Counted from the first letter of the stretch, positions 21,243 to 36,706 are shown. The stretch is DNA of 64,000 bases from Gammaproteobacteria bacterium (GCA_029865385.1 JAOUGX010000002.1:1-64000); one strand, 5' to 3'. The notes: generated by a model from the letters alone, not told the origin. Made by a program: numbers and translations.

Positions 21243-21668
21243 ATGAAACGCAGTGCAAGCGCCGAGTGGCATGGCGATCTCAAGAAAGGCAAGGGAAAGA
21301 TCAGTACGGATAGCGGCGTACTGAAAGACGCCCAGTATTCGTTCGGCACGCGCTTCGAAAACGGTGCCGGCACAAACCCTGAAGAACTCATCGCCGCCGC
21401 CCATGCCGGATGTTTCTCGATGGCGCTGTCGAACATCCTCGGCAAAGCCGAACTGACGGCAAGCAGAATCCGTACCAAAGCCATCGTGAGTCTCGAGCAG
21501 GTCGACGGAAATTTTTCGATTACAGCAGTCCATCTGGATGTCAGCGCGAAAGTGCCCGGAGCTGACAAGGCGGGCTTCGACAAGGCGGCGAACGATGCCA
21601 AGTCAGGCTGCCCGGTTTCACGGGTCCTGAACGCAAAGATCACAATGAGTGCGACACTTGAGAAATAA
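21243..21668 (+). CDS. OsmC-family peroxiredoxin
   Basis: 141 residues from the ATG at 21243 ([18 protein letters not shown]), with AACAGGAG upstream. The two redox cysteines are in [11 protein letters not shown] and SGCPVSRVL. OsmC reduces organic hydroperoxides and is usually induced by osmotic or stationary-phase stress. It is first in a same-strand run with an M20 peptidase and two small membrane proteins; its stop almost touches the next gene. Confidence 0.95.
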
Positions 21669-21672
21669 GATT

Positions 21673-23049
21673 GTGAAATCGACGGCGGGTGTTTTCACGG
21701 TGCTGATCGCGGCGGCGCTTGCAGCCACTGGCGCAAACGCTCAGTCCATTGAGGACGAGGCACTGGCCTGGCTGCAGCAATTTATCCGGGTCGATACCGT
21801 TAACCCGCCGGGCAATGAAACCCGGGCCGTCGAGTTCATAGCCGCTATTCTCGAGGCCGAAGGCATACCCTATCAAACCGCAGACAGCGCGCCCGGCCGA
21901 GGCAACCTGTGGGCACGGCTGGCGGGCGGCGACGAGCCGGCACTGATTCTGCTGCAGCACACGGATGTCGTACCGGCAGACCCGAACTACTGGACTTCGG
22001 ATCCGCTCTCCGGCGAGATCCGCGACGGTTACCTGTGGGGTCGCGGCACGCTGGACATGAAAGGAACGGGTATCTCGCAACTTGCCACGTTCGTCAGCCT
22101 CAAACGTTCCGGCATGCCACTGAATCGGGATGTCGTACTGGTCGCAACGGCCGACGAAGAAGCCGGCGGCCTCTACGGTGCCGGGTGGCTGGTCGAACAT
22201 CACCCGGAAGTCTTCCGCGGCGCCGGTCTGCTGATCAACGAAGGCGGCAACGGCGAGCAGGCCGACAAGGAACTCATCTTCAACGTAGAAGTGACGCAAA
22301 AAGTTCCGGTCTGGTTGCGACTGGTCGCCGTCGATACGCCCGGCCATGGCTCGATGCCAAATGCGACGTCGTCGGTCACACGAATCGTGGATGCGTTGGC
22401 CATCCTTCGCGCCAACCCGTTCCCGCCGCGTATCGTGGACGCTGTGGACGCAATGTTTCGGTCGCTGTCGCCGAGTGCGGCGCCGGAGTGGCAGGAGTCC
22501 TACCGCAAGATCGCGGCAGCAGTAAAAGAACCGGGTTTCCTCTCCAGGCTGCAGAAGCATTCGCCGTTAATGCATGCCCTGACGCGGGACACCTGCTCGA
22601 TAACCCGTTTCGAAGCCTCGAACAAGATCAATGTCGTTCCGCCAAAAGCGTGGGCTGAGATCGACTGCCGCATCCTCCCGGACCGGCCGAGCGAGTTATT
22701 CGTCAGCGAGCTGCGCGAATTGCTGAAAAGTACGGGAATTGAAATCGAAGTGATCATGGCCTTCACGCCGGCGGTATCCGAGACAAACACCCTGCTCTAC
22801 CGTGCCATTGAAGAAGTCACGGCTGAACGTCACCCCGGCTCCAGGGTGGTTCCGTCGGTTTCAACCGGATTCACCGACAGCCATTTCACCCGGGATCTGG
22901 GTATTGCCAGTTATGGTTTTGATCCTGTCGTGGTCCCGGAGTCGGAATTCTCAAGGATTCACGGCAACGACGAACGCATCAGCGTCGATGCGTTCAAGCG
23001 GGGAGTGAGCGATCACCTCGCCATTGTCAAAGCTGTCGTGATCGACTGA
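21673..23049 (+). CDS. Exported M20-family metallopeptidase
   Basis: 458 residues from a GTG at 21673 with GAGAA upstream, giving the signal peptide [25 protein letters not shown]; a GTG at 21649 inside the OsmC gene is the alternative. Zinc ligands and catalytic residues are in [21 protein letters not shown] and [12 protein letters not shown], and the lid domain separates two halves of the catalytic domain. It resembles secreted carboxypeptidase G2/Gly-X carboxypeptidase-type enzymes and would hydrolyse peptides or N-acyl amino acids in the periplasm. The exact substrate is unknown. Confidence 0.92.
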
Positions 23050-23055
23050 TTTGCC

Positions 23056-23529
23056 ATGAACCTGGAAATCTGGGAACTCCTCAGCTATGTCGTCACCGTC
23101 CTCGGTTTGCCGCTCGCGATGGCTGTATTCCTTTACGAGAAACGCAAGGAACGTGTTGCAGAGGAAGAAGAGGTTTATGAAACACTCGCCGGAAGCTATC
23201 AGGATTTTCTGCGCCTCGCGCTGGATAATCCGGACCTGCGACTGATGTCCAAGACGCGTACAGGTGATCTTAACGAGGAGCAACGCGAGCGCATGCAAGC
23301 CATATTTGGAATTCTGATTGCACTGTTCGAGCGTGCGTACCTGCTGTTGTACGAACCGGACCTGTCGGGAAAAGACGCGAGGCGCTGGCATTCGTGGAAA
23401 GACTTCATGGAAGAATGGTGCGCACGCGACGACTTCCGCGAAGCCATACCAGACCTGCTGCAAGGGGAAGACCCGGAATTTGCCGCGTATCTTGGCAAGC
23501 TGGCTGCTAACGCCGAGGCTCCCCGGTGA
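23056..23529 (+). CDS. Single-pass membrane protein with cytoplasmic helical domain
   Basis: 157 residues: one membrane helix (about 5-27, IWELLSYVVTVLGLPLAMAVFLY), the basic stop-transfer EKRKER, then an all-helical domain containing YETLAGSYQDFLRL and the hydrophobic stretch IFGILIALFERAYLLLY. No function known to me, though proteins of this layout are widespread in proteobacteria. It starts six bases after the M20 stop. Confidence 0.8.
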   Translation: MNLEIWELLSYVVTVLGLPLAMAVFLYEKRKERVAEEEEVYETLAGSYQDFLRLALDNPDLRLMSKTRTGDLNEEQRERMQAIFGILIALFERAYLLLYEPDLSGKDARRWHSWKDFMEEWCARDDFREAIPDLLQGEDPEFAAYLGKLAANAEAPR

Positions 23530-23621
23530 TGCTGACTTCAATGATTCGTGTTTACGCAGTATCGTAACAACGCACTGTTACTTTGGACCATTCTGCAACT
23601 CGGCCTTTTGGACCGAACTCA

Positions 23622-24089
23622 GTGGAACTTACAACTCCTGCAAATTCTGTATCCGCCGCCATTCAGTCGGCCATCGCCCCGGTTTTTCTGTTAACCGGTA
23701 TCGGCGCAATTCTGTCGGTTGTTACCACGCGATTCGGTCGCGTGGTTGACCGGATGCGACGGATCGAGGCACGTATGCCGCAGGTTGCGTCAGAAATCCA
23801 CAAGGATCGCCTGTTGGCAGAAATGAACGATCTTTGGCGTCGCATCAAGATCATCAATTGGGCCATGCGGCTGTCGGTCAGCTCGGCGCTACTGATTTGC
23901 GTAGTCATTATCCGCCTCTTTATCGGCACATTTGCCCCGTTCGATTTGAGCACGGTGCTGGCGTCATTGTTTGTGCTGGCGATGTTGTTGCTTGTTCTGG
24001 CCCTTCTTCTGTTCCTGATGGAAGTTGCGATCTCCTCGGTAAAGATGCTGCAGAGTGCCGAATACCTGATAACTGAAGATGAAAAGTAA
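23622..24089 (+). CDS. DUF2721 membrane protein
   Basis: 155 residues from a GTG at 23622; the frame is open from a TTG at 23583, and neither start has a strong ribosome-binding site. The DUF2721 pattern is clear: a first helix IAPVFLLTGIGAILSVVTTRFGRVVDRMR, a charged loop, then two close helices (LSVSSALLICVVIIRLF and a long Leu-rich one). Function unknown. It is the last intact gene of the OsmC-led run. Confidence 0.88.
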   Translation: MELTTPANSVSAAIQSAIAPVFLLTGIGAILSVVTTRFGRVVDRMRRIEARMPQVASEIHKDRLLAEMNDLWRRIKIINWAMRLSVSSALLICVVIIRLFIGTFAPFDLSTVLASLFVLAMLLLVLALLLFLMEVAISSVKMLQSAEYLITEDEK

Positions 24090-24090
24090 T

Positions 24091-24115
24091 TCAGTACCGT
24101 AGCCCATCAGTACCG
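24091..24115 (+). repeat. Short direct repeat at the pseudogene junction
   Basis: TCAGTACCG occurs at 24091-24099 and 24107-24115, 16 bases apart, between the DUF2721 stop and the broken TolB-like/TPR gene. It could mark the deletion that removed the N-terminus of that gene. Confidence 0.4.
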
Positions 24116-24121
24116 CAGGGT

Positions 24122-25706
24122 TTGCAGGCTGTTCGCGAAAAAATCGATAAAGCGGAAGTGCTTTCCTCGTCGGTGCGCGACCGATCGAACGGGGTATTGC
24201 CTTTCGTCAACATGAGTTCGGATCCGAAACAGGAATATTTGTCGGACGGAATTTCGGAGGAGTTACTTAACGTACTTGCGCAGTACCAGAACCTGCGCGT
24301 TGCCGCACGCACCTCGTCATTCCAGTTCAAGGGCGAGAACGAGGATATCGTCAAGATTGCCGAGCAATTGAAAGTGGCACACGTGCTCGAAGGCAGCGTG
24401 CGCAAATCCGGTACGCGGCTGCGTATGACTGCACAGCTGATCAAAGCCTCCGACGGCTATCACCTGTGGTCCGAAACCTACGATCGTGAATTCGACGGCG
24501 TTTTCGCTATACAGGACGAGATTGCCGCCGCCATTGGCGATGCACTGGAAGCCGAACTGGGTCTTGGCAAGGACGCAGTTGACGACCCGCAACCGATGGT
24601 CATCGCGGCCGCCAACACGCAGGCCTACGATGCGTTCCTGCAGGGCCGCCGCCTGATTCACCAGCGTGGTCGCGAGTCGCTGGAAGACGCCGTGCGACAC
24701 CTGGAACGATCACAGAGACTCGATGCAATCTATGCGCCGGCGCATGCGCAGCTCGCCATCGTCACCATACTGCTGCTCGATTCAGGTGGAACCTACGGCG
24801 ACCTGTCGATGACAGAAGTGAACCGGCGCGCGACGCCGCACATCAATCTGGCTTTCGAACTCGCTCCCGAGCTGCCGGAGGCGCACGCCGCACGCGGACT
24901 AATGACCATTCACACCGGCGACTGGCAGCAAGCTGTTTCCGATACCCGAATGGCGCTGGACAGCAACCCGAGCTACACCGACGCGATGAACTGGCAGCGC
25001 ATCGCGCTGGGCGAGCTCGGCCGGTAGCGAATTTCAGGATCTTCCGGACGAAATGCCTGAGGTCGACCCCCTATCGGTCATCGCGCGCCTGAATCAGGCC
25101 AATTACTTTGTCGTCACCCAGCAATCGCAGGAAGCGCACAAAGTCGCAGACGGTTTGCTGCCGCAGAGCAGCGCCTGGGCCTCGTACTGGAAACACGCGG
25201 ACGCAGCCGAACACACCGGAAATATCGCGGACGGCATCGAGTGGGGCCTCAAAGCCTATACAGAAAACCCGAACGATCTCGCATCGAATTTCACGTTAAT
25301 GAACAGTTTTAACCTGATCTCCGAGCATGCCGAAGCCCGCCGCGTCAGCGATTCACTTATCGCCTTCGCGGAACTTGCCGCCGGAAACAACGAAGAAGCG
25401 GTGCGGCAGATTTCGGCGAGACTGCAGGCCGACCCGGAAAACCTCACACTGATCCTGGACACTGACAACATTGCGCACGCCGCCAGGCAATTCGATATCG
25501 CGCTGCGAAACTACGAGGAGTACGCGCGAAGGCAACCAGCCGGACGTCCGGTCGGTGGCCCGTATCAGACGTTGCTGCTCGCCTGGAACCGGCGGCCGGC
25601 GCCTGGCAGCCTTTGCCGCAAACCCGCGATGCCGTCGACCGGCAGCTCCGACTGTAGGAGCCCGCACTGCGGGCGACAGCAACACTCTTTGCACAACTAC
25701 CTATAG
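24122..25706 (+). pseudogene. Broken winged-helix/TolB-like/TPR gene, truncated and frameshifted
   Basis: The first piece (24122-25027) opens inside the TolB/FlgO-like domain common to CadC-like adenylate-cyclase-type TPR proteins (VLPFVNMSSDPKQEYLSDGI, then VAHVLEGSVRKSG and GYHLWSETYDREFDGVFAIQ), followed by TPRs. Family members normally begin with a winged-helix DNA-binding domain or membrane segment; both are missing and no ATG with a ribosome-binding site is present. At about 25020-25027 the frame stops (GELGR-stop), and the TPR chain resumes in another frame from 25023 (GSEFQDLPDE...PLSVIARLNQ) to about 25600, where it degrades into Arg/Pro/Ser-rich sequence with a REP-like palindrome. 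A split pair of genes is possible but less likely. Confidence 0.7.
25653..25678 (+). repeat. REP-like palindromic element (GTAG type)
   Basis: TGTAGGAGCCCGCACTGCGG and the following GCGAC form the GTAG head plus GCCCGC/GCGGGC stem (25660-25665 with 25669-25674) seen in REP sequences of Xanthomonadaceae and pseudomonads. Only this one copy is seen in the window. It lies inside the decayed 3' end of the broken TPR gene. Confidence 0.55.
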
Positions 25707-25759
25707 CCAGCCCCCACGCGGCGCGGCAAGCTGTCTCATTTCTAGCTGACCGGTAGCGG

Positions 25760-28717
25760 ATGCCCTCACCCACCGAAGAACTTGGTTTGAGCGCCAAGAC
25801 CCTCGATACGCGGGTCCGGCGAGCCGCCGCCCAGATTTCTGCCGCCTCGCTTGCGCAGCTCGAGCGCACGCTCGGTGCCGACGCCTGGGCCAATGCCGTC
25901 GTGTACGAACGCGAAGGCGTAACAGAGACAGTCCGCGTCATGTTGCGGCCGTTGGTTGTTATGCCCGAGCAAGTCGCTTACCTGCATCACGTTTGCAGCC
26001 GTATAACGGATGCCCTGCGGCGCCTGCCCGACTTGTACCTGTCCGACCCGGCTGTGCGAGCGCTGCTGCCCATTGCGTCGGACGAAGAGGAATTCCTGCG
26101 TGAGATCTGGGGGCCCGATCACAGTCGCCTCAATCCCGTGTACGGGCGGCTTGACGCCGTATGCGACTTCACAGGGGCACGCTGGCAGGACTCGTTGCAG
26201 TTCATCGAACCGAACCTGTCCGGCGTTGGCGGTCTGCATTTTGCGCCCGTGGCCGAAGCGCTGGTCGCGCGCAATATCGTGCCGACGATCTGTGCTCACG
26301 ATCCTGATCTCAAACTGGAATTGCCGCGCGACCAGCGTGACCTCTTCCTGCAGGTGCTGCTCGACCACGCGCGTGCGGTTGGTCGGGAAGGCGGGAATCT
26401 GTGCCTGATCGAACCCAAGTACTCGGGCGAAGGGCCGACCGAGCAACCTTCGCTTCGTGATTTCTGTCGCGAGCGGCATGGCGCGACGATCGTCCATGCC
26501 GATCCGCGCGAACTCGAGGTAGGCGCAGGCGAAGTCTGGTTTCAGGATGTGCGAGTCGACATTGCCTACCGCGATTACGAGGCGCGCGACCTGCTCGAAC
26601 TCGAACGCGCGGAGGGTATTCGATTCGAAGCCATGCGCTTGCTGTTCAAGCAGAATCGCATGGTGTCATCGCTGGGCGGCGACTTCGATCACAAGAGTTG
26701 CTTCGAAGTTTTCACCGACGAGGGGCTCGCCGGAAAATATTTCAGCTCCGAAGAATTGCGCCTGTTTCGACGTCACATATTGTGGACGCGAATCGTTTCG
26801 CCACGGCGCGTGACATTGCCGCACGGGGAAGGCGATCTTCCGGAGTTCATTCGGCGCCACCGCGAGGAACTCGTGCTGAAACCGAATCGCGGTTATGGCG
26901 GCGCTGGTATTCACATTGGATCCACGATCGAAGCAGGCAAGTGGGATACCTTGATCGATGAGGCCCTTTCCCTTGCCGACGATCCGCACCGCTCGTGGGT
27001 CGTGCAGTCGGCCGCCAACCTGCCCGTGCACGAATTTCCCATAGTCGGGAAGGACGGTCGTGTCAGCGACGAGCCCTTCTATACGGTTTTCGGTTTTGCC
27101 GCGACAGACCACGGTATTGGTACGCTGGGCCGGGTCTCACAGCGCCAGGTCATAAACGTCGCACAACGCGGCGGACTGGTGGCCGTACTTATCGGTCACA
27201 AGCCGCCGGAACTGAGGGCACCGGCGCGAGCCTCTATTCCCGACGGCAATGCGAAAGCCCGACTTGCCGGTATGATTGCCGATCTGCGCCAGCTGGACGG
27301 CACGATCGGTCTCCTGAACTGGGACGAGGAGACCTATCTGCCCGAGCGTGGGCGTCCCGAACGCGGGGCACAACTGGCCACACTCGAAGGCTTGCGGCAC
27401 CGGCTTCTCGCAGCAGACGAACTCGGCGAACTAATCGAACGCGTTGCACTGGATCCCTCCAGTGACACTCTGACAAAGGCGGAACTGAAAAGACTCCGCC
27501 GACATCGCCGCATTGCTCTCGCCTTGCCGGACGAACTTGTGCGGAAGTTTGCAGAAATACGCTCTCGTTGCCTGGCTTCCTGGGAGTTGGCGCTTCGAGA
27601 AGACGATTTTTCGATTTTTGCCAAACCGTTCGCCAATGTGCTGGCGCTAGTGCGCGAACGTGCACAGGCTCTGAGCAGGTCAAACGACGGGTACGATGCG
27701 TTACTCGACGAGTACGAACCTGGCATGACACGCGGCCGTCTGGAGCCTGTACTCGACGCCGTCGGCAAGCGGCTCGAGCCAATGGTCGGCAGACTGACCG
27801 AAACAACACGAACTGCCACTCCCCTACCGACCGCGCACTACCCGGAAACACAGCAAGTTTCATTCTGCCGCAAGGTGCTGCTCGACATGGGTTTCGATTT
27901 CACGCGCGGCCGCATCGACCTCTCGACGCATCCGTTTACACTGATGGCCAGTCCGAACGACGTTCGATTGACGATCCGTTCGGATTTGCGCAACCCGATG
28001 CCCGCCTTGTTCGCAACGCTTCATGAAGGCGGCCACGCGCTTTACGACCAGGGATTTGGCAGTGAACTGCGCAACACTTTGCTTGCGGAAGGTCCCGGCA
28101 TGGGCATTCACGAGTCTCAGTCGCGACTATGGGAAAATCACGTCGGACGCCGACGCGGATTCTGGACACATTACCTGCCGGACTTTCTCGAACATTTCCC
28201 CGGCGTGTTCGATGGCTGGAGTCCGGAAGAGCTTGTCAAGTCCATCAACGTAGTCCGGCCCGGTCTGAAACGCGTCGAAGCGGACGAAGTTACCTACAAC
28301 CTGCACATTCTGTTGCGATACCAGCTGGAGTTGGCGCTGCTCTCCGATGATCTCAAGGTCACGGACCTTCCAGGCGCCTGGAACGAGCTAAGCCAGCGTC
28401 TGCTGGGTGTCCGGCCCGATAGCGCGCGCGAGGGTTGCTTGCAGGACGTGCATTGGGCCCTTGGTATGTTCGGTTATTTCCCGACCTACCTGATCGGCAA
28501 CCTGTACGCCGCCCAGTTGATCGAAAGTTTCAACCGCCGCCACGACCTGGACGCCGCTCTCGAGCGAGGTGACCTGCAATCATTGACAGGCTGGCTTCGC
28601 GAGCAGGTGCACATTCATGGCTCGAGCCTCAGTGCGGAAGAAATAATTACGCGGGCCACCGGCCGCGATCTCGATCCCGAGCCGTTTTTTCGCGCACTTA
28701 CCGAGCGCTATGGGTAA
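25760..28717 (+). CDS. Fusion: circularly permuted ATP-grasp-like ligase + M32 carboxypeptidase (Taq)
   Basis: 985 residues in one unbroken frame. Residues about 1-490 look like a circularly permuted ATP-grasp ligase of the glutathionylspermidine-synthetase / DUF404 kind: FIEPNLSGVGGLHFAPVAEA, WFQDVRVDIAYRDYEARDL, and the nucleotide-binding loop KPNRGYGGAGIHIG (Lys374). Residues about 495-985 are a complete M32 metallocarboxypeptidase: LLNWDEETYLPERG, zinc motif HEGGH (755-759), third ligand Glu785 in GIHESQSRLWEN, EADEVTYNLHI and the end motif GYFPTYLIGNLYAAQL. The zinc-ligand spacing (26 residues from the second His to Glu) is as in known M32 enzymes. A ligase joined to a hydrolase recalls glutathionylspermidine synthetase/amidase. 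No signal peptide, so cytoplasmic. The substrate is unknown. Confidence 0.88.
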   Translation: MPSPTEELGLSAKTLDTRVRRAAAQISAASLAQLERTLGADAWANAVVYEREGVTETVRVMLRPLVVMPEQVAYLHHVCSRITDALRRLPDLYLSDPAVRALLPIASDEEEFLREIWGPDHSRLNPVYGRLDAVCDFTGARWQDSLQFIEPNLSGVGGLHFAPVAEALVARNIVPTICAHDPDLKLELPRDQRDLFLQVLLDHARAVGREGGNLCLIEPKYSGEGPTEQPSLRDFCRERHGATIVHADPRELEVGAGEVWFQDVRVDIAYRDYEARDLLELERAEGIRFEAMRLLFKQNRMVSSLGGDFDHKSCFEVFTDEGLAGKYFSSEELRLFRRHILWTRIVSPRRVTLPHGEGDLPEFIRRHREELVLKPNRGYGGAGIHIGSTIEAGKWDTLIDEALSLADDPHRSWVVQSAANLPVHEFPIVGKDGRVSDEPFYTVFGFAATDHGIGTLGRVSQRQVINVAQRGGLVAVLIGHKPPELRAPARASIPDGNAKARLAGMIADLRQLDGTIGLLNWDEETYLPERGRPERGAQLATLEGLRHRLLAADELGELIERVALDPSSDTLTKAELKRLRRHRRIALALPDELVRKFAEIRSRCLASWELALREDDFSIFAKPFANVLALVRERAQALSRSNDGYDALLDEYEPGMTRGRLEPVLDAVGKRLEPMVGRLTETTRTATPLPTAHYPETQQVSFCRKVLLDMGFDFTRGRIDLSTHPFTLMASPNDVRLTIRSDLRNPMPALFATLHEGGHALYDQGFGSELRNTLLAEGPGMGIHESQSRLWENHVGRRRGFWTHYLPDFLEHFPGVFDGWSPEELVKSINVVRPGLKRVEADEVTYNLHILLRYQLELALLSDDLKVTDLPGAWNELSQRLLGVRPDSAREGCLQDVHWALGMFGYFPTYLIGNLYAAQLIESFNRRHDLDAALERGDLQSLTGWLREQVHIHGSSLSAEEIITRATGRDLDPEPFFRALTERYG

Positions 28718-28762
28718 GCGCCCGGGATCGGGCTGCATGCAATACGACGCGGCTTTGCTGAG

Positions 28763-29722
28763 CTAGTCAGCAAGCAAGCCGGTCAGCCAGTGCAACACGT
28801 TCAGTACGAACTGGGCGTTCTCCGGCGCCGATGGGTGGTTTATCCCCATTGTCCCGACGACGCCATCGCGAACCCGGGTTTGTGCCGTGAACATGGCCGC
28901 CTCACCGAACACTGCAACCCTGCCCGATCCGAATCTCAGCACGCCGCCCTGGATGAGGCCTCTTGTGGACACGTAGGGCGTTGACTCGTCGAACTCGCCC
29001 GCCTCGCGCGGCAGGTAGACAAACCAGTCATCCGGCATGCGCATCAGCGGCTGAACTTCCGTGACGAAACGAAACGCCTGACCGGTGAAGCTGGTTACGC
29101 TTTGTATGGCCTCGGCCTCCGACCTACCGCGCGTGATGGCATGATCTGACAGCAGGCCTGAAGAACGCGCGAATGACAGCGTTCTGCCTTCCGTTGGAGA
29201 TTTCATGGCGTAGCCGTTATAAAAAACAACGCCGAATGCATTGGCCAGATCGGCGGTCGCGCCGGGGAACGGCATGTGATCGGCGATTAACAGCAGCGAG
29301 CCACCGTCCCGAACCCACTGCACAATGGCTTTGATTTCCGTGGCGGTGAAAGCCGGCGGCGTGGGTAGCACCCACTCGGCGTCGTCGCCGCCTGCTACTG
29401 CGTTCGAAATGACGAATACCCTCGCCTCCCGAAGTGAAGCCGTCGTCACCGCGGCATCCGAATTTCGCATCCGGTAGCCGTCGAGGCGCAGCAACTCGGC
29501 AAATGCCGCAAAGCGGCCGTCGATAGTGTGGAAATTGCCGTGCGCGGCATCGACCAGGACTACGGGCCCAGAACCGGCCGGAAAAGCAGGTTTGTTAACC
29601 GTCGGCACCCAGTTGTCGTCTGCAACCTGCTGGCCAATGGCTTCGACGGCGACCAGAGTAATACAGGCCAAGGCGAGGTATCCGATCGCGCAAGATACCT
29701 TTTGCGAGCATGTATCGTTCAT
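28763..29722 (-). CDS. Exported DUF4350/ThuA-like protein
   Basis: 319 residues from the ATG at 29722 (MNDTCSQKVS), with GAGATG upstream; the frame continues further but without coding character. Signal peptide or anchor about 8-28 (IGYLALACITLVAVEAIGQQ). The rest is an alpha/beta, glutamine-amidotransferase-like fold as in DUF4350 and ThuA: VVLVDAAHGNFHTIDGRFAAFA, ARVFVISNA, IVQWVRDGGSLLLIADHMPFPGA, RVAVFGEAAMF. No catalytic triad can be named with certainty. Family members are often periplasmic and of unknown role. It is divergent from the beta-lactamase gene. Confidence 0.75.
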   Translation of the reverse strand: MNDTCSQKVSCAIGYLALACITLVAVEAIGQQVADDNWVPTVNKPAFPAGSGPVVLVDAAHGNFHTIDGRFAAFAELLRLDGYRMRNSDAAVTTASLREARVFVISNAVAGGDDAEWVLPTPPAFTATEIKAIVQWVRDGGSLLLIADHMPFPGATADLANAFGVVFYNGYAMKSPTEGRTLSFARSSGLLSDHAITRGRSEAEAIQSVTSFTGQAFRFVTEVQPLMRMPDDWFVYLPREAGEFDESTPYVSTRGLIQGGVLRFGSGRVAVFGEAAMFTAQTRVRDGVVGTMGINHPSAPENAQFVLNVLHWLTGLLAD

Positions 29723-29845
29723 CGGAATCATCTCGGAAATCAAACAGCTTAGCACTAGCACTTGGGGACAAGGACCTGACGCTTGGCCGCCGCATTCCTG
29801 GCTGCTAAATTGCGGCCACCTTACATTTTTCATCTTGAGTCCAAA

Positions 29846-30745
29846 TTGCAGTTGAAGCGGATCGAAAGTCTTTACTTGATTTGGCCACTGCTGCTCTCGT
29901 GCCTCGTAATTTTTGCTGCAGCAAGCTGCCACCGTTCCAACAGGGCCTATTCCGACAGTTTCGCCGATTCAATTTTCGCTTTGGAACAACGGACCGGCGG
30001 CAGTATTGGCGTCTATGCGCTTGATACGGCAACCGGAAACGAATTGGCCTATCGGGCCGATGAACGCTTTGCAATGGCTTCGACGTTCAAGCCCTTGTTG
30101 GTTGCAGCGGTACTGGCTCAGGTTGACAATGGCCAACTGAACCTGGCGGACACTGTCAGCCTGCAAGGCGTAACCATTCAGCCCTATTCGCCCGTGGTTG
30201 GGGAGCTGGTGGAAGACGCAGCGATGTCGCTATCGGATCTGAGCGATGCGGCAGTAACTCTCGGCGACAATACGGCAGCCAACATGCTACTGGAGATCAT
30301 CGGCGGGCCGGAAGCATTGACGCAGTTTCTTCGCCAGGGTGGCGACGACATCACCCGCCTCGATCGTTACGAAGTCGAGCTGAACGAGAACGCGCGCGGC
30401 GATGAACGGGATACCACCACACCGCGGGCGGTTGCCGAAAGCTTGCGTCGACTACTTTTCTCGGAAGAACTGAGCGAAGACTCCAGGAAGCGCTTGCAGG
30501 ACTGGATGGTAGCGAGCACGACCGGGACGAGACGGCTGCGGGCCGGATTGCCGTCGACCTGGCGTGTTGGCGACAAGACCGGCACCGGCATGAACGGTGC
30601 GGTGAACGATATCGCGGTCGCCTGGCCGCCCAACGGGCAACCGATTGTCTTGGCCGTTTACATGTCCTGGTCCGACGTCGACGTCGCAACCCTCAGCGGA
30701 TTGCACGCGGAAATCGCCGCGCTGGTCGCGGCAAGCTTTCGCTGA
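29846..30745 (+). CDS. Class A beta-lactamase, lipoprotein, with GDN instead of SDN
   Basis: About 299 residues from a TTG at 29846 (no ATG is available; 29852 is an alternative). Lipobox AASC follows the signal helix. Class A motifs: S70-x-x-K in MASTFKPLLVA, E166 and N170 in RLDRYEVELNEN, and K234TG in VGDKTGTG. The S130-D-N loop, however, reads TLGDNTAAN, so Ser130 is Gly (codon GGC, one base from AGC). Ser130 relays protons in class A enzymes and its Gly replacement is known in inhibitor-resistant TEM/SHV variants, so this enzyme may be slow or altered in specificity. It is divergent from the DUF4350-like gene. Confidence 0.9.
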   Translation: MQLKRIESLYLIWPLLLSCLVIFAAASCHRSNRAYSDSFADSIFALEQRTGGSIGVYALDTATGNELAYRADERFAMASTFKPLLVAAVLAQVDNGQLNLADTVSLQGVTIQPYSPVVGELVEDAAMSLSDLSDAAVTLGDNTAANMLLEIIGGPEALTQFLRQGGDDITRLDRYEVELNENARGDERDTTTPRAVAESLRRLLFSEELSEDSRKRLQDWMVASTTGTRRLRAGLPSTWRVGDKTGTGMNGAVNDIAVAWPPNGQPIVLAVYMSWSDVDVATLSGLHAEIAALVAASFR

Positions 30746-30877
30746 TTGCGCGATCCACATACTCGGGTCCGGGCGGTCAAAGGTTTCCTTGCCTGCGAGC
30801 CGCCGGTAATCTCCTATACTTATTCGCATGGCTGCTCTTTTTTTCAATTATAACAATAACTTAGGGAGATTCAAGAC

Positions 30878-31252
30878 ATGTGCACATTTGACAGGAGCTG
30901 GCGTCTCGCCGGCGCGCTAATCCTCTTGGCGGCAGGCAACGCCGTTCTTGCCGACTCGAGAGTGAACCAGGTCTGGACCTGCACACTCAACGAGGGGCAT
31001 GTCGTGGCCGACATGCGGGCTGCGCAGGCCGCTTGGGTTTCCTGGGCAAACAAGAAACCGCACGGCAAAGACCTCCGCGGTTCCGTGGCAACGCCGATGG
31101 TGTCGTCCGACCTGAGCGTCGTGATGTACGTCGACTCTTACCCGAACCTGGAGGTCTACGCGGCCGACGTAAGAGCTTATGACAGCGATGAAGGGCGGGC
31201 ACTGCAGAAAGCGTTCGACAAAGTGTCGACCTGCACGTCGGCCGCCATGTAA
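30878..31252 (+). CDS. Small exported protein of unknown function
   Basis: 124 residues, ATG preceded by AGGGAG. Signal peptide about 1-25 (LAGALILLAAGNAVLADS), then a compact alpha/beta domain with two cysteines that could form a disulfide (VWTCTLNEG and VSTCTSAAM). The layout NEGHVVADMRAAQAAWVSWANK followed by beta strands and VMYVDSYPNLEVYAADV is reminiscent of dimeric alpha/beta-barrel (ferredoxin-like) proteins, but I do not recognise a family. It probably acts in the periplasm. Confidence 0.75.
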   Translation: MCTFDRSWRLAGALILLAAGNAVLADSRVNQVWTCTLNEGHVVADMRAAQAAWVSWANKKPHGKDLRGSVATPMVSSDLSVVMYVDSYPNLEVYAADVRAYDSDEGRALQKAFDKVSTCTSAAM

Positions 31253-31342
31253 ATGGTCGAAGAAGCTGCCGGAGAATAGCACTGCCCTACGTGGCATTCG
31301 CCGTAAACGCGTTGGAATAAAGAGCACTCTTGTCACGACAAC

Positions 31343-31370
31343 GCACGTCCGCCTGCGATGGCGGGCGTGC
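31343..31370 (+). other. G+C-rich hairpin after the small exported protein
   Basis: GCACGTCCGCC (31343-31353) pairs with GGCGGGCGTGC (31360-31370), one G-T wobble, loop TGCGAT. No run of T follows, so a terminator role is uncertain. Confidence 0.4.
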
Positions 31371-31439
31371 ATTGCATGATGAGGACGAACTATAGTCTGC
31401 TGTTCCAGCATCGATGAACGTGTCGAATACCCGGTCAAT

Positions 31440-32021
31440 GTGAGCAGCTATTCGATTCATACACCCGAATCCTTTCGGACAGTGCCATGGCGTAACGGCC
31501 GTGGCGAAACCCTGGCGCTGCTGTCGCGGTCCCTGCCCGGTTGCGACGGATTCGCCTGGCGCCTGAGTATCGCTGTCGTCGATAGCGACGGGCCGTTCTC
31601 TCATTTTCCCGGTTGCGACAGGACGTTGTTGTTGTTGGAAGGTCGCGGCATCACGCTCAAGCATTCGACCGGGCAGATCGATAGTTTGTCTACACGTTTT
31701 TCCGCCGCTCGTTTTTCGGGCGACCACGAAACCATCGCCACGCTGCACGACGGGCCGATCCGGGACTTTAACGTGATATGCCATCGTAAACACTGTGTTG
31801 CACATGTCGATGTGCCAGACGGCAATGCTCCTCGGGATTTGCTTGTCGATGCCGATACGCTTCTGGTCTACGCGACGGACAGATCAGCACGGGTCCGCAC
31901 TGCCAATGAGGCATGGATCGAGGTCGACCAGCATCACCTCATGCAATACGATAAGCCTGTCAAAGGTCGTTGGTCATTTTCCCAAGGGCCCGCAATAGTC
32001 ATGCAGATATGCAGCAAATGA
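31440..32021 (+). CDS. HutD/Ves-family protein
   Basis: 193 residues from a GTG. The HutD/Ves cupin pattern is clear: VPWRNGRGETLALL, FAWRLSIAVVDSDGPFSHFPGCDRTLLLLEGRG, then a second cupin half. HutD is linked to histidine utilisation and Ves to cold-induced metabolism in E. coli; biochemical function is unsettled. No hut genes are nearby, so its role here is open. Thirteen bases separate it from the amidohydrolase gene, which suggests co-transcription. Confidence 0.85.
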   Translation: MSSYSIHTPESFRTVPWRNGRGETLALLSRSLPGCDGFAWRLSIAVVDSDGPFSHFPGCDRTLLLLEGRGITLKHSTGQIDSLSTRFSAARFSGDHETIATLHDGPIRDFNVICHRKHCVAHVDVPDGNAPRDLLVDADTLLVYATDRSARVRTANEAWIEVDQHHLMQYDKPVKGRWSFSQGPAIVMQICSK

Positions 32022-32034
32022 TTCGGGAGAAACG

Positions 32035-33759
32035 ATGCGCTACTTAGGCTTGATTCCAATGATGGCAGCATTGAGCGCCTGCGGTCCCTCCAGCGTCCAT
32101 CCGGTAGCGGACCTGGTGCTGACCAACGGAATTGTCGTGACAGTCGATCCAGCACTGCCCAGAGCCGAAGCTCTCGCCGCAAGCGGAGACCGCATCGTTG
32201 CCGTAGGTACGAACGAGGAGATTGCGGCCTACGTAGGAAAAGGCACCGAAGTTATCGATCTCCGCGGCCAAACCGCCATTCCCGGGCTCATAGAAGGCCA
32301 CGGTCACTACACGAGTTTCGGTGGATCCTTGCTGATCCTTGATTTTCGCTATGCGAAAAGTTTTTCCGAAATCGTTTCGATGGTTGCCGAATCGGCCAGG
32401 AATACGCCAGCCGGTGAATGGATCATCGGCCGCGGCTGGCACCAGGACAAATGGCAAACAAAGGAGGACGTGCTGGTCGAGGGACTGCCTACACATGCGT
32501 CGCTAAGTGCAGCAACTCCCGAGCACCCGGTGATGCTGATTCACACCAGCGGTCATGGGGTTTTCGTCAACAAGAAAGCGATGACGCTGGTCGAGCTCAC
32601 GGATACGACGCAGCCTCCTGAAGGTGGTGAGATCGTCCGGGATTCCGACGGACACGCGACCGGCATGATGCGTGAAGCCGCACAGGACGTTTTTCGCCAG
32701 GCTTACTCCGGTCACCAGGGCCGACGACAGGCAGGCGTTGCAGAAGCAGAGTTGCGCCGCATGGTTACGCTCGGTGGCGAAGAAGCGCTGCGTCACGGTA
32801 TTACCTCATTTCAGGATCTGGGCACCACGTTTGCCGAAGTGGATCTCATTCGCAAGATGGCTGACGAAGGCAAACTACCGGTTCGTCTTTATATGGCGTT
32901 CGAGGAAGATGCGAAGGATATGGAAGGTCGGCTTGCCGATTATCGAATGGTTGGCTACGGCGACAACTTCCTGACCGTGCGCAGCATCGGCGAAAAGGTT
33001 CTCGACGGAGCACTCGGCACGCACGGCGGCTGGCTGCTTGAGCCGTACGCGGATATGCCACGGAGTCACGGTCTCAACGTAGTTCCGATCGAGGAGATCG
33101 AGGCTTCTGCCAAACTCGCGATCGAAAATGCTTACCAGATGGCGATCCAGGGCATCGGCGATCGCGCGTATCGCGAATTGTTGAACATCTACGAAGCGGA
33201 ATTCTCGCGACATCCGGACAAGAAAGATCTTCGATGGCGCATCGAGCACGCCCAGGTCATTCATCCGGATGACGTTCAACGTACTGTCGATCTGGGGATC
33301 ATACCGGCGGTACAAGGTATATTCGCCTGTTCCGATGGGCCCTGGGTGGTCGACCGGCTTGGACCGGAACGAACGCTGGAACGAGGCTATATTTTCAACA
33401 CCCTGGCGGAAGCCGGCGCCACACCGACCAATGGCACGGATCCGCCGGTTGACGAGATCGACCCGATTGCGAGCTTTCATTGCTCGGTTACCCGCATCCT
33501 CCCGGACGGCACGAAATTCCAGCCGCAGGAGGTCTATTCCCGCGAGCGCGCGCTCTACTCCTACACGATGGGCAATGCGATCGCCGCATTCGAGGAAGAC
33601 CTCAAAGGGTCGCTTGCTACGGGCAAGCTGGCCGACATCACGGTTTTGTCACAGGACCTTCTCACCGTGCCGGACGACAAGATCCGCGACACCAGGATCG
33701 TGATGACTATCGTAGGCGGCAAAGTGCGCTACCGGGATGGCGCTATCGTGCCACTCTAG
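32035..33759 (+). CDS. YtcJ-like amidohydrolase, lipoprotein (second copy)
   Basis: 574 residues; ATG with CGGGAG upstream. Lipoprotein signal LIPMMAALSACGPSS (Cys16). The amidohydrolase barrel has GLIEGHGHYTSFG (H-x-H), carboxy-Lys/His segments near FQDLGTTFAEVD, the late His/Asp in RIEHAQVIHPDD and GTDPPVDEIDP. It differs from the 18601-20259 enzyme in many places, so it is a diverged paralogue rather than a recent copy. Substrate unknown; periplasmic face of a membrane expected. Confidence 0.92.
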   Translation: MRYLGLIPMMAALSACGPSSVHPVADLVLTNGIVVTVDPALPRAEALAASGDRIVAVGTNEEIAAYVGKGTEVIDLRGQTAIPGLIEGHGHYTSFGGSLLILDFRYAKSFSEIVSMVAESARNTPAGEWIIGRGWHQDKWQTKEDVLVEGLPTHASLSAATPEHPVMLIHTSGHGVFVNKKAMTLVELTDTTQPPEGGEIVRDSDGHATGMMREAAQDVFRQAYSGHQGRRQAGVAEAELRRMVTLGGEEALRHGITSFQDLGTTFAEVDLIRKMADEGKLPVRLYMAFEEDAKDMEGRLADYRMVGYGDNFLTVRSIGEKVLDGALGTHGGWLLEPYADMPRSHGLNVVPIEEIEASAKLAIENAYQMAIQGIGDRAYRELLNIYEAEFSRHPDKKDLRWRIEHAQVIHPDDVQRTVDLGIIPAVQGIFACSDGPWVVDRLGPERTLERGYIFNTLAEAGATPTNGTDPPVDEIDPIASFHCSVTRILPDGTKFQPQEVYSRERALYSYTMGNAIAAFEEDLKGSLATGKLADITVLSQDLLTVPDDKIRDTRIVMTIVGGKVRYRDGAIVPL

Positions 33760-33799
33760 CCTATATCAAACCCGGTCGTGGTCAGCCGACCGGGGACAG

Positions 33800-33828
33800 T
33801 AGGCAGGAATCCTCGGAAGGCGTATAAA
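33800..33828 (+). promoter_or_regulatory. Candidate promoter of the NmrA-like gene
   Basis: TAGGCA (33800-33805) and TATAAA (33823-33828) with a 17-base spacer. The start point would be near 33835, directly before the hairpin at 33840-33858. Confidence 0.4.
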
Positions 33829-33839
33829 TTGGTTTCTGC

Positions 33840-33858
33840 GCGCAGGCTGCGCCTGCGC
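33840..33858 (+). other. G+C-rich hairpin in the leader of the NmrA-like gene
   Basis: GCGCAGGC (33840-33847) pairs perfectly with GCCTGCGC (33851-33858), loop TGC. No T run follows. If the promoter above is right it would cap the 5' end of the transcript; alternatively it ends the preceding amidohydrolase transcript. Confidence 0.4.
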
Positions 33859-33898
33859 CGCCATTGGGTTAGTCAACGCCTTACACCGAGGTGCAAAC

Positions 33899-35053
33899 AT
33901 GGCCAGGAAATCGAAAGCCCCCGCCAGGAAAAAGGCCGGCGTGAAAACGAAAACGGCGAAAGCCAACAAAAAACCGGCATCAGGCCCGAAAAAAAAGGGC
34001 GCAAAAAAGAAAGTCGCCAAGGCGAAGTCGAAGCCGGTCAGGAAAAGACCTGCGAAAGCATCCGCAAAAGCAGCGACGCGCGTCCGCAAAGCGAAGGCCT
34101 CCGGCAAGAAGATCATCGTCGTAACCGGTGCGACGGGCGCACAAGGCGGCGGACTCGTACGGGCAATACTCGGCGACGCCAAAAGCAAATTCGGCGTTCG
34201 GGCGGTAACCCGAAATCCTAAGTCCGACAAGGCTGTTGCAATTGCGAAACTTGGCGCCGAAGTGGTCCAGGCGGACCTCGACGACGTCGACAGCCTGAAG
34301 AAGGCTTTCAACGGCGCGTACGGCGCCTATTGCGTAACCAATTTCTGGGAGCACTTTTCGCCGGACAAGGAGCTTGCTCAGGCCGCGAAGATGGCCGAGG
34401 CGGCGAAGGAATGCGGACTGAAGCACGTCATCTGGTCGACGCTGGAGGATTCGCGAAACTGGATTCCATTAAGCGACAACCGGATGCCCACACTGATGGG
34501 TAAGTACAAGGTGCCCCACTTCGACGCAAAGGGAGAAGCCAACGGGCAGTTTACCGATCGCAAGGTTCCGACCACGTTCCTGCTCACTTCCTACTACTGG
34601 GACAACCTGATCCATTTCGGAATGGGACCACAGGTCGGCGCAGACGGCGCGTTGACCATCACCATGGCCATGGGTGACAAGAAGCTGCCCGGTATCGCCA
34701 GCGACGACATAGGCCGTTGCGCCTACGGCATTTTTCGCAGTGGCGCCAAATACATCGGCCGCACCGTCGGGGTGGCCGGTGAATACCTGAGCGGCGCGGA
34801 GATGGCAGCCGCCCTTAGCAAGGCACTCGGCCGGGTTGTCCGGTATGACGCCGTCGACCCGGACACCTACCGAAGCTTCGGATTTGCCGGCGCCGACGAT
34901 CTCGGCAATATGTTTCAGTTCAACCGCGACTTCAGCGAAGAATTCTGTCGCGCGCGCGGCCTGCACGAAGCCCGCTCGCTGAACAAGGACCTGCAGAACT
35001 TTGACGACTGGTTATCGCGGCACAAGGACGAAATCCCCATGCCGCAAACCTGA
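33899..35053 (+). CDS. NmrA-like NAD(P)-binding protein with a histone-H1-like Lys tail
   Basis: 384 residues; ATG preceded by CCGAGGTG. Residues 1-71 contain 25 Lys and 6 Arg but no Asp or Glu, in Ala/Lys/Pro repeats like histone H1, AlgP or bacterial H1-like proteins. From 72 a Rossmann fold begins with VVTGATGAQGGG (about 75-85), followed by the NmrA-type FGVRAVTRNPKS, VVQADLDDVDSLKKAF and HVIWSTLED. NmrA proteins sense NAD(P)+ redox state rather than catalyse; here a nucleic-acid-binding tail is joined to such a sensor. The normal family length is about 300, so the tail is the whole excess. Confidence 0.9.
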   Translation: MARKSKAPARKKAGVKTKTAKANKKPASGPKKKGAKKKVAKAKSKPVRKRPAKASAKAATRVRKAKASGKKIIVVTGATGAQGGGLVRAILGDAKSKFGVRAVTRNPKSDKAVAIAKLGAEVVQADLDDVDSLKKAFNGAYGAYCVTNFWEHFSPDKELAQAAKMAEAAKECGLKHVIWSTLEDSRNWIPLSDNRMPTLMGKYKVPHFDAKGEANGQFTDRKVPTTFLLTSYYWDNLIHFGMGPQVGADGALTITMAMGDKKLPGIASDDIGRCAYGIFRSGAKYIGRTVGVAGEYLSGAEMAAALSKALGRVVRYDAVDPDTYRSFGFAGADDLGNMFQFNRDFSEEFCRARGLHEARSLNKDLQNFDDWLSRHKDEIPMPQT

Positions 35054-35227
35054 GCTTTCCGTGAGGTGCAGCCGACCTCACCAGGCAGGCAGGCAGCTCC
35101 CAGCCCAGCGCCCGTGATCGATTTGATTTATATTTTTAATTCAATAGGTTGTGGGCGTTATTGTATGTTATTTCGCAGAGATGATCTTGCAGCTCGGCAA
35201 GCGATCACAGGCGGCCAGCAAGGTACC

Positions 35228-35281
35228 GAAAAACGCAAACGATTGCGGTGTTTTTCAAGGGCTTGAATCCCTAAGCTTAGG
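35228..35281 (+). promoter_or_regulatory. Inverted repeats upstream of the AAA-FHA gene
   Basis: Two structures in the 35054-35386 gap: GAAAAAC (35228-35234) facing GTTTTTC (35250-35256), and a perfect 12-bp palindrome CCTAAGCTTAGG (35270-35281) that lies just upstream of a candidate promoter, where a dimeric regulator could bind. The remainder of the gap, AT-rich around 35115-35170, shows no gene. Confidence 0.4.
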
Positions 35282-35287
35282 CTCGAC

Positions 35288-35316
35288 TTTACTTGAGGAG
35301 GGGCTTGCACTAGACT
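35288..35316 (+). promoter_or_regulatory. Candidate promoter of the AAA-FHA gene
   Basis: TTTACT (35288-35293) and TAGACT (35311-35316), 17-base spacer; each matches four of six consensus bases. It would give a leader of about 65 bases. Confidence 0.35.
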
Positions 35317-35386
35317 GGCAAAGCTAAAAAAAAACTCAACAAGAGCCTTTAACTGCATGTTTGAAAAGGCCAAAGAGGTAAGCGAC

Positions 35387-36706
35387 ATGAGTCCTCCACA
35401 GCTAGCCCGAATCGCCCCGCCGGCGCAACCCGATATCGAGCCGGAACAGCCGTTTTTGACCGATTGCCACCGCAACGCATTGGAGCGCCTGCGACTGGCA
35501 TACAAGGCATTGTCTCCCCTGTCGATCGTGATTGGCGAAGGAAAGAGCGGTGCCAGTTTCGTAATCAGCCGATTTCTCAACGATATCGCTGCAGACGACA
35601 TCGCGGTCGCCCGGGTGACCGAGCCCTGTGCGGATCCCGTCATGGCCATGCGGCGAATAATTCGTGCCATTGGTTTCGAGCCGAAGGACATGAATCTCGC
35701 CGATCTCGAAAAGATCTTTACGATGTTCCTGTCGTATCAACGAACCCATCATTGCCGGACCATAATCTGTATCGAGGAAGCCCAGGACAACAGTTGCTGG
35801 ATGCTGGACAAGATTCGCCGGCTGGTTGAAATGGAGGCCGCCGGAAAATACGGCCTGATGGTGATCCTGACCGGCCAGCCCGGCCTGAATCAATTGCTCA
35901 GCGAGCCGCCATTGAATGCCATACGCGGCCAGACTCGTGATCGAATCTATCTTTCGCCGCTGACAGAAACGGAGAGCCGCGAATACGTCAAGCGGCGGGT
36001 GGAAGCCGGCGGACAACGACACGTTGGCCAGGTGTTCGATTTTGAGGCCGTTGGGCTGCTGCACGAAATCAGCGGTGGCGTACCGGATGTGCTGAGCGAC
36101 ATGTGTTCCAAATGCCTCGAGTTGCTCGACGACGATCAGACGCCACTTGTCACGCCGGAAGTCGTAGCGATGGCGGAAGATCAGTTAAGGCAGGATTCCC
36201 AGCCGGAAAAACCGAAAGGGGCTTTACCGTTGGCGAAGGTCCAGGCGGCGCGCCAAATGCCGGTCCGTGCCGCGCACGGACACATCACTGCCCGCATTGA
36301 TGATGAAGTCGTACAGAAGCGGTCACTGGACAAGGGGCACATTCTGATCGGTCGGGACGTCATGTGCGATATCTGCATCAATCATCCGACCGTCAGCCGC
36401 TATCACGCTCTGATCGTCAATGCGCCGCGCGCCGTACGAATCGTGGACCTTGGCAGCACCAATGGTACGTTCGTGAACGGAAGGCGCTTCCGCCAGTTTG
36501 CGATCAAGGACAATGACAGCATTTCTGTCGGTGTCTGCAAATTGCAGTTCCATGCCGGCGGCTCCGCGGAATCGACAGACATCGATACCGGGCGCACCGA
36601 TCATTTCGAGCCACATGGTGACGGCCAGCTCGAGGATCTGGGGACCGAGCTGCTGCGTGAGCTGAGTTCGCTGGCTGCAAAGCCGGCGTCGACGACCCGA
36701 CACTGA
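35387..36706 (+). CDS. ExeA-like AAA+ protein with degenerate P-loop and C-terminal FHA domain
   Basis: 439 residues from the ATG at 35387, which has GAGG eight bases upstream (an ATG at 35357 lacks one). AAA+ domain about 20-280 of the ExeA/GspA type. The P-loop reads GEGKSGAS (50-57), so the Lys of GxxxxGK[ST] is Ala, and Walker B is IICIEEAQD with Glu for Asp; ATP hydrolysis is doubtful. The FHA domain (about 325-400) has all binding residues: IGRD, SRYHA, and LGSTNGTFVNG, so it should bind phosphothreonine. A paralogue with an intact P-loop is at 60501-62942. No kinase gene is adjacent. Confidence 0.88.
   Translation: MSPPQLARIAPPAQPDIEPEQPFLTDCHRNALERLRLAYKALSPLSIVIGEGKSGASFVISRFLNDIAADDIAVARVTEPCADPVMAMRRIIRAIGFEPKDMNLADLEKIFTMFLSYQRTHHCRTIICIEEAQDNSCWMLDKIRRLVEMEAAGKYGLMVILTGQPGLNQLLSEPPLNAIRGQTRDRIYLSPLTETESREYVKRRVEAGGQRHVGQVFDFEAVGLLHEISGGVPDVLSDMCSKCLELLDDDQTPLVTPEVVAMAEDQLRQDSQPEKPKGALPLAKVQAARQMPVRAAHGHITARIDDEVVQKRSLDKGHILIGRDVMCDICINHPTVSRYHALIVNAPRAVRIVDLGSTNGTFVNGRRFRQFAIKDNDSISVGVCKLQFHAGGSAESTDIDTGRTDHFEPHGDGQLEDLGTELLRELSSLAAKPASTTRH

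Follow-up and report, generated by a model that had tools for sequence, protein, structure and literature searches.

A gene in the genome of a gammaproteobacterium appears to encode an ATP-grasp-like ligase and an M32 carboxypeptidase in a single protein, which raises the question of whether the two halves belong together and what they might act on. M32 carboxypeptidases cleave the last residue of peptides and require a free C-terminal carboxylate. To our knowledge, neither these peptidases nor most circularly permuted ATP-grasp ligases have been assigned a natural role. The stretch analysed here, called the window, comprises 64,000 nucleotides (GCA_029865385.1, JAOUGX010000002.1:1-64000), and all coordinates refer to it unless a locus is named.

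Gene structure and reading frame

25760-28717, + strand: whole gene, predicted circularly permuted ATP-grasp ligase domain plus predicted M32 carboxypeptidase domain (985 aa plus stop)
25760-27229, + strand: residues 1-490, predicted circularly permuted ATP-grasp ligase domain (AlphaFold model, Foldseek, profile match to 3n6x)
27215-27259, + strand: linker, about residues 486-500, gap-free in 11 fusions
27269-28711, + strand: residues 504-984, predicted M32 carboxypeptidase domain (PF02074, E = 1.4e-154)

The open reading frame on the plus strand has 985 codons, begins with ATG and contains no internal stops. An in-frame TAG at 25754 lies just 5' of the start codon, which is the first ATG after it. 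The same in-frame junction was found in ten other assemblies. An earlier note on this DNA, made from the sequence alone, had described a single unbroken frame, and the ten assemblies bear this out: they rule out two genes with a missed stop, and sequencing error or misassembly is excluded because they hold the same in-frame fusion. The alignment across the junction was gap-free in all 11 fused proteins, with only three invariant positions in residues 481-505. Since no signal peptide was evident on inspection of the N-terminus, the product is expected to be cytosolic. Scans for promoters and RNA families in the surrounding DNA found nothing.

The M32 carboxypeptidase half

27929-27973, + strand: HPF (724-726) and DVRLT (734-738), the M32 motifs HPF and DXRXT
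28022-28036, + strand: HEGGH (755-759), zinc-binding HEXXH, invariant in 11 fusions
28109-28120, + strand: HESQ (784-787, in HESQSRLWEN) with metal ligand E785, which is invariant in 11 fusions
28271-28285, + strand: R838-VEAD, corresponding to RXXAD within IRXXAD; R838 and D842 are the same in all 11 fusions
28433-28456, + strand: GCLQDVHW (892-899), the M32 motif GXXQDXHW

The match to PF02074 (Peptidase_M32) spans residues 504-984 end to end, and this half also matched the M32 structures 7a03 (E = 2.2e-96) and 3hq2 (E = 1.5e-94). The motifs listed for the family are HPF, DXRXT, HESQ, IRXXAD and GXXQDXHW (PMC7918520). IRXXAD reads KRVEAD in the window copy, its first residue being K. H755, E756, H759 and E785 were invariant in 11/11 fusions, and the end motif GYFPTYLIGNLY is present in the peptidase half. 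Judged by sequence, residues 504-984 are an M32 carboxypeptidase with the full family motif set. The signatures that had been claimed as intact in both halves were all found in the protein.

The ligase half

26147-26155, + strand: R130-x-D132, matching the catalytic RxD pair (Cp1B R139, D141), invariant
26207-26215, + strand: E150-x-N152 (in FIEPNLSGVGG), expected Mg-binding ExN pair (Cp1B E163, N165), invariant
26879-26902, + strand: K374-PNRGYGG, predicted ATP-binding lysine and glycine-rich loop
27131-27175, + strand: R458-VSQRQVINVAQRGG, conserved C-terminal ATP-grasp loop, aligning with the end of the 3n6x match

Residues 1-490 of the window copy gave no Pfam match above cut-off (best ATPgrasp_ST, E = 0.037), did not reach the cut-offs of PF14403 and PF04174, and matched nothing in NCBIfam. 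The identity of this half rests on a profile match, on sub-threshold CP_ATPgrasp matches in relatives, and on the fold. The ligase alignment was built from the window copy and relatives from a scan of 85,000 genomes (14 full-length, one cut at a contig end), and holds 15 ligase domains. As a profile, it matched PDB 3n6x, a putative glutathionylspermidine synthase, at E = 4.4e-4. Below-threshold matches to CP_ATPgrasp_2 occurred in 12/15 members, the best at 8.2e-8, and CP_ATPgrasp_1 also matched below threshold. Among seven relatives scored against the CP_ATPgrasp_2 cut-off, only the Planctomycetaceae copy L009 touches it (32.0 of 32).

An AlphaFold model of residues 1-490, made from the 15-sequence alignment, reached a pLDDT of 78.8 and a pTM of 0.80. 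Foldseek against the PDB returned 38 matches at E <= 0.001, comprising glutathione synthetases, Cp1B, YjfC/YgiC, GspS and one putative gamma-glutamylcysteine synthetase. The top matches were the glutathione and homoglutathione synthetases 8fbz, 1m0w and 3kal (E about 1e-14, TM about 0.6), followed by Cp1B 9cjn (E = 1.4e-13), YjfC 7uk6, YgiC and GspS 2io9 (E = 3.5e-8). The ATP-grasp-like fold that the earlier note had proposed for this half passed the structure-prediction test, and by the model residues 1-490 have a circularly permuted ATP-grasp fold. The ligase half is a divergent, uncatalogued branch of the superfamily and not a member of PF14403 or PF04174 as drawn. A full-length AlphaFold model from 11 sequences was poor in the ligase half (pLDDT 60, pTM 0.52) and was not used for the arrangement of the domains.

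ATP-grasp enzymes with such a fold turn a carboxylate into an acyl phosphate, which is then coupled to an amine (PMC6376114, PMC12568646). Cp1B couples trans-epoxysuccinate to an L-amino acid via an amide; it needs R139, D141, E163 and N165, and mutants lose activity (PMC12568646). The matching residues R130, D132, E150 and N152 were invariant in all 15 ligase domains and in 11/11 fusions. Invariant across the 15 domains were also K374, P375, N376, Y379, G380 and G381 of the glycine-rich loop, as well as R458, S460, Q461, Q463, V464, N466, V467, A468, Q469, G471 and G472 of the C-terminal loop.

The fusion in other genomes

The same two-domain order, sought in other genomes, was found in ten. 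At least ten further genomes carry the fusion, three of them proteobacterial MAGs and seven of the planctomycete group, at 52-83% identity to the window protein. Four of the 14 full-length ligase relatives from the 85,000-genome scan were fused to M32 as in the window: L006 (a gammaproteobacterial MAG, ligase half 87% identical), L007 (a Methyloceanibacter MAG), L008 (a proteobacterial MAG) and L009. The host assignment of the last three MAGs could be wrong, and the fusion itself is independent of it. Among 150 genomes of L009's order, seven carry the gene, L009's own included, with frames of 991-1052 codons; the six new planctomycete-group copies were confirmed as fusions. Besides the fused one, 9/11 fusion genomes have no strong M32.

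Strong purifying selection acts on both halves. Between the window and L006, the ligase half had a dN of 0.075 and a dS of 1.16 (dN/dS about 0.06), and the peptidase half a dN of 0.136 and a dS of 1.71 (dN/dS about 0.08). In both the ligase tree and the peptidase tree, all fused copies form a single, fully supported clade, and one fusion event is therefore enough.

Outside the planctomycetes, a close gene is rare, with 1/274 genomes of the window's class, 1/249 genomes in the order of L007 and 1/240 in the class of L008. A second genome of the window's genus holds the first 61 residues of the gene at a contig end (82% identical), and a close gene was found in none of the other sampled members of the window's family. 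The DNA similarity between the window and L006 ends at the gene limits (25717-28709), with differing flanks, which suggests that the gene was transferred on its own.

No conserved third gene was common to the fusion loci. Three near-identical planctomycetes (L079:6940-11818, also L078 and L080) have an Hsp90/HtpG gene upstream of the fusion, at a distance of 4 bp, and among the fusion loci it is limited to these. In the window, two consecutive ORFs with weak TPR matches (24122-25706; 301 and 217 aa) lie just upstream of the fusion and look like one gene broken by a frameshift. A class A beta-lactamase-like gene lies downstream (29783-30745; PF13354, E = 1.1e-49). Further on, 33899-35053 encodes an NmrA-like NAD(P)-binding protein whose N-terminal tail, about 70 residues rich in lysine and alanine, resembles histone H1, and a DNA homologue of this gene (70%) adjoins the fused gene upstream in L006.

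Ligase and M32 as separate genes

Stand-alone ligase relatives occurred in Chloroflexota (L010-L019, L084) and planctomycetes (L085, L086). The planctomycete G1507 has its ligase gene (49% identical) next to an M32 gene (40-41%; PF02074 E = 7e-174) in divergent orientation, with 69 bp between the start codons. Its genome holds no other strong M32, and we estimate the chance of such adjacency at about 4 in 10,000, taking roughly 4,500 genes in 5 Mb. In L015 and L016, both Chloroflexota, one strand carries the ligase, then one or two small ORFs, a SpoU-type methyltransferase and finally M32, and the stop codon of the L016 methyltransferase overlaps the start of M32. The two are related and count as one linkage case.

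Nine of the 12 stand-alone loci of the close subfamily had no adjoining M32, so the ligase can work without a linked one. Chloroflexota genomes with a stand-alone ligase contained M32 in 9/10 cases, which is weak evidence because M32 is common in Chloroflexota (70/120 genomes). Distant Planctomycetota relatives (L087-L099, 30-38% identical) had no M32 within the fetched flanks, and only 4/11 of their genomes held a full-length M32. Since most stand-alone ligases and the distant relatives are without an adjoining M32, the link with M32 is confined to some members of the close subfamily.

Other neighbours were recorded at the loci of stand-alone and distant relatives. The ligase of L010 lies between PmbA/TldD-family metallopeptidase genes, all on one strand (L010:70-5676), with a TldD-like gene upstream and a TldE-like gene 19 bp downstream, another peptidase partnership for the ligase family. 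In three further Chloroflexota, an S9-type (prolyl oligopeptidase/DPP-like) gene is directly upstream of the ligase on the same strand (L013:750-2984, L017:4079-5950, L018:4069-5868); the S9 assignment is by Pfam for L013 and L018, and L017 was grouped by BLAST. A D-Ala-D-Ala-ligase-like ATP-grasp gene and a GNAT acetyltransferase are located downstream of another stand-alone ligase, on the opposite strand (L101:2892-4449). A distant circularly permuted ATP-grasp relative in Chloroflexota (L066:332-3492, minus strand) adjoins a gene of the GCS2 glutamate-cysteine-ligase family, a hint at a gamma-glutamyl peptide pathway, and about 68/301 Chloroflexota genomes hold only this distant type. In a genome of the window's order (G058, L003), the matched region 1501-2910 is M32-like; HEXXH was not found in the matched part, and the region may represent an M32 homologue without activity or a mis-framed read.

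Comparison with known systems

The earlier note had likened the protein to glutathionylspermidine synthetase/amidase (GspSA), and as an analogy of how it works the comparison is a good one. GspSA of E. coli (2io9, 2ioa) also combines a circularly permuted ATP-grasp ligase with an amide hydrolase in one protein. However, its hydrolase is an N-terminal CHAP-type cysteine amidase and it adds spermidine, whereas the window protein has a C-terminal zinc carboxypeptidase of the unrelated M32 family. The GspSA product is a spermidine amide without a terminal carboxylate, while M32 needs a free one. A CHAP amidase domain was not found in the window protein: only PF02074 passes, and residues 1-490 are all ligase fold. 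Without the amidase domain, membership in GspSA is ruled out.

The best fold matches of the ligase half, the eukaryotic-type glutathione and homoglutathione synthetases (2hgs, 1m0w, 3kal; TM 0.60-0.65), add an amino acid to a peptide carboxylate, but they are only 12-15% identical to it and stand alone without a peptidase. Cp1B of fungal E-64 biosynthesis (9cjn) shares the fold and the RxD and ExN residues and joins an acid to an L-amino acid; unlike the window ligase, which is fused to M32, it is a fungal, stand-alone enzyme of a natural-product cluster with other enzymes. YgiC and YjfC (7uka, 7uk6) are bacterial and have the same circularly permuted ATP-grasp fold, but use polyamine acceptors and have no fused peptidase; a paper that PMC12568646 cites (reference 48) describes them in its title as peptide-spermidine ligases. 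On the peptidase side, the C-terminal half of the window protein corresponds to a full M32 enzyme with all motifs (Taq, BsuCP 3hq2, ChtCP 7a03). Known M32 enzymes are stand-alone proteins of about 500 aa, whereas here about 490 extra residues precede the domain.

The Anbu operon (ATP-grasp, alpha-E, transglutaminase, Anbu) similarly pairs a glutathione-synthetase-like ATP-grasp protein with a peptidase-like one and has been proposed to tag and untag (PMC6376114). It consists of four separate genes and Anbu is an Ntn-hydrolase, whereas the window has one fused gene. No alpha-E, transglutaminase or Anbu gene was found among the nine neighbouring ORFs scanned (21649 to 36706), and an Anbu-type operon is ruled out here.

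A description of the pair of ATP-grasp ligase and M32 carboxypeptidase was not found in the open-access full texts searched. Within this scope, the earlier statement that no system with this pair had been described stands. The one open-access text naming both ATP-grasp and a metallocarboxypeptidase was a transcriptome study, and the single match on fusions of glutathionylspermidine synthetase and carboxypeptidase was, by its title and abstract, a survey of papain-like peptidases. The bifunctional ligase/hydrolase is a known type, and this domain pair is one for which no description was found in the open-access literature.

Proposed function

Our preferred reading, which we give an even chance, is a bifunctional enzyme with one peptide-like substrate, on which it both makes and breaks one kind of amide bond. 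Going by fold and residues, the ligase domain would convert a carboxylate to an acyl phosphate with the help of ATP and Mg, the carboxylate probably being the C-terminus of a small peptide or of an acid resembling one. An amino acid would then attack the acyl phosphate to give the amide product. The M32 domain, going by its family, would hydrolyse the C-terminal amino acid off a product of this type in a metal-dependent reaction. The net effect would be the controlled synthesis and turnover, or the proofreading, of one cytosolic peptide-like metabolite; alternatively, the cycle might target the C-terminus of a peptide or protein. Because M32 needs a free terminal carboxylate, an amino acid is a likelier amine partner than a polyamine, and would most likely form the end of the ligase product. 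It is plausible that both halves act on the same metabolite, with gene-neighbour evidence in support. Against this reading count the lack of a conserved third gene pointing to a substrate and the majority of stand-alone ligases without a linked M32.

The fold and linkage data are also compatible with an exchange reaction, in which M32 trims the C-terminal residue of a precursor and the ligase then adds a different unit to the exposed carboxylate, sequentially and on one substrate. Stand-alone ligases adjoin other peptidases, TldD/TldE in L010 and S9 in L013, L017 and L018, as if paired with a maturation peptidase. But no precursor peptide gene was recognised beside the fusion and the neighbours vary between genomes, and we consider such an exchange rather unlikely. 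Still less probable, in our judgement, is that the domains have no common substrate, with M32 serving general peptide catabolism and the fusion tying expression levels or feeding amino acids to the ligase. Broad specificity and a housekeeping role are usual among M32 peptidases (PMC7918520), and the fused copy, as the only strong M32 in most fusion genomes, may hold that role. The joining of the pair in three arrangements (fused, as a divergent pair and in a co-directional run) would then be hard to explain.

The ATP-grasp half could instead be dead for ligation and regulate the peptidase by sensing ATP or binding substrate, since no member clearly reaches a curated ligase cut-off and just the one planctomycete copy touches that of CP_ATPgrasp_2. 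Such a regulator is very improbable: every predicted catalytic residue is invariant, and of the two halves the ligase is the slower to evolve (dN 0.075 vs 0.136 for the peptidase). An assembly or sequencing artefact that joined two genes has a negligible probability, with the same junction in ten independent assemblies and no supporting point found.

A more specific form of the preferred bifunctional enzyme, put forward tentatively, is a bacterial cycle of ligation and removal at a C-terminus, run by one two-headed enzyme: the ATP-grasp domain would attach an amino acid to the carboxylate of a specific peptide, protein or metabolite, from which the fused M32 would remove it. Comparable ligation and removal at a C-terminus is known from the cycle of tubulin tyrosine ligase and carboxypeptidase, which such a system would resemble if true, and it would give the M32 peptidases their first dedicated partner and substrate. 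The conserved fusion and the separate linked pair tie M32 to an ATP-grasp ligase, and a single purified protein makes both testable. The ligase half defines a bacterial subfamily outside the coverage of Pfam and NCBIfam.
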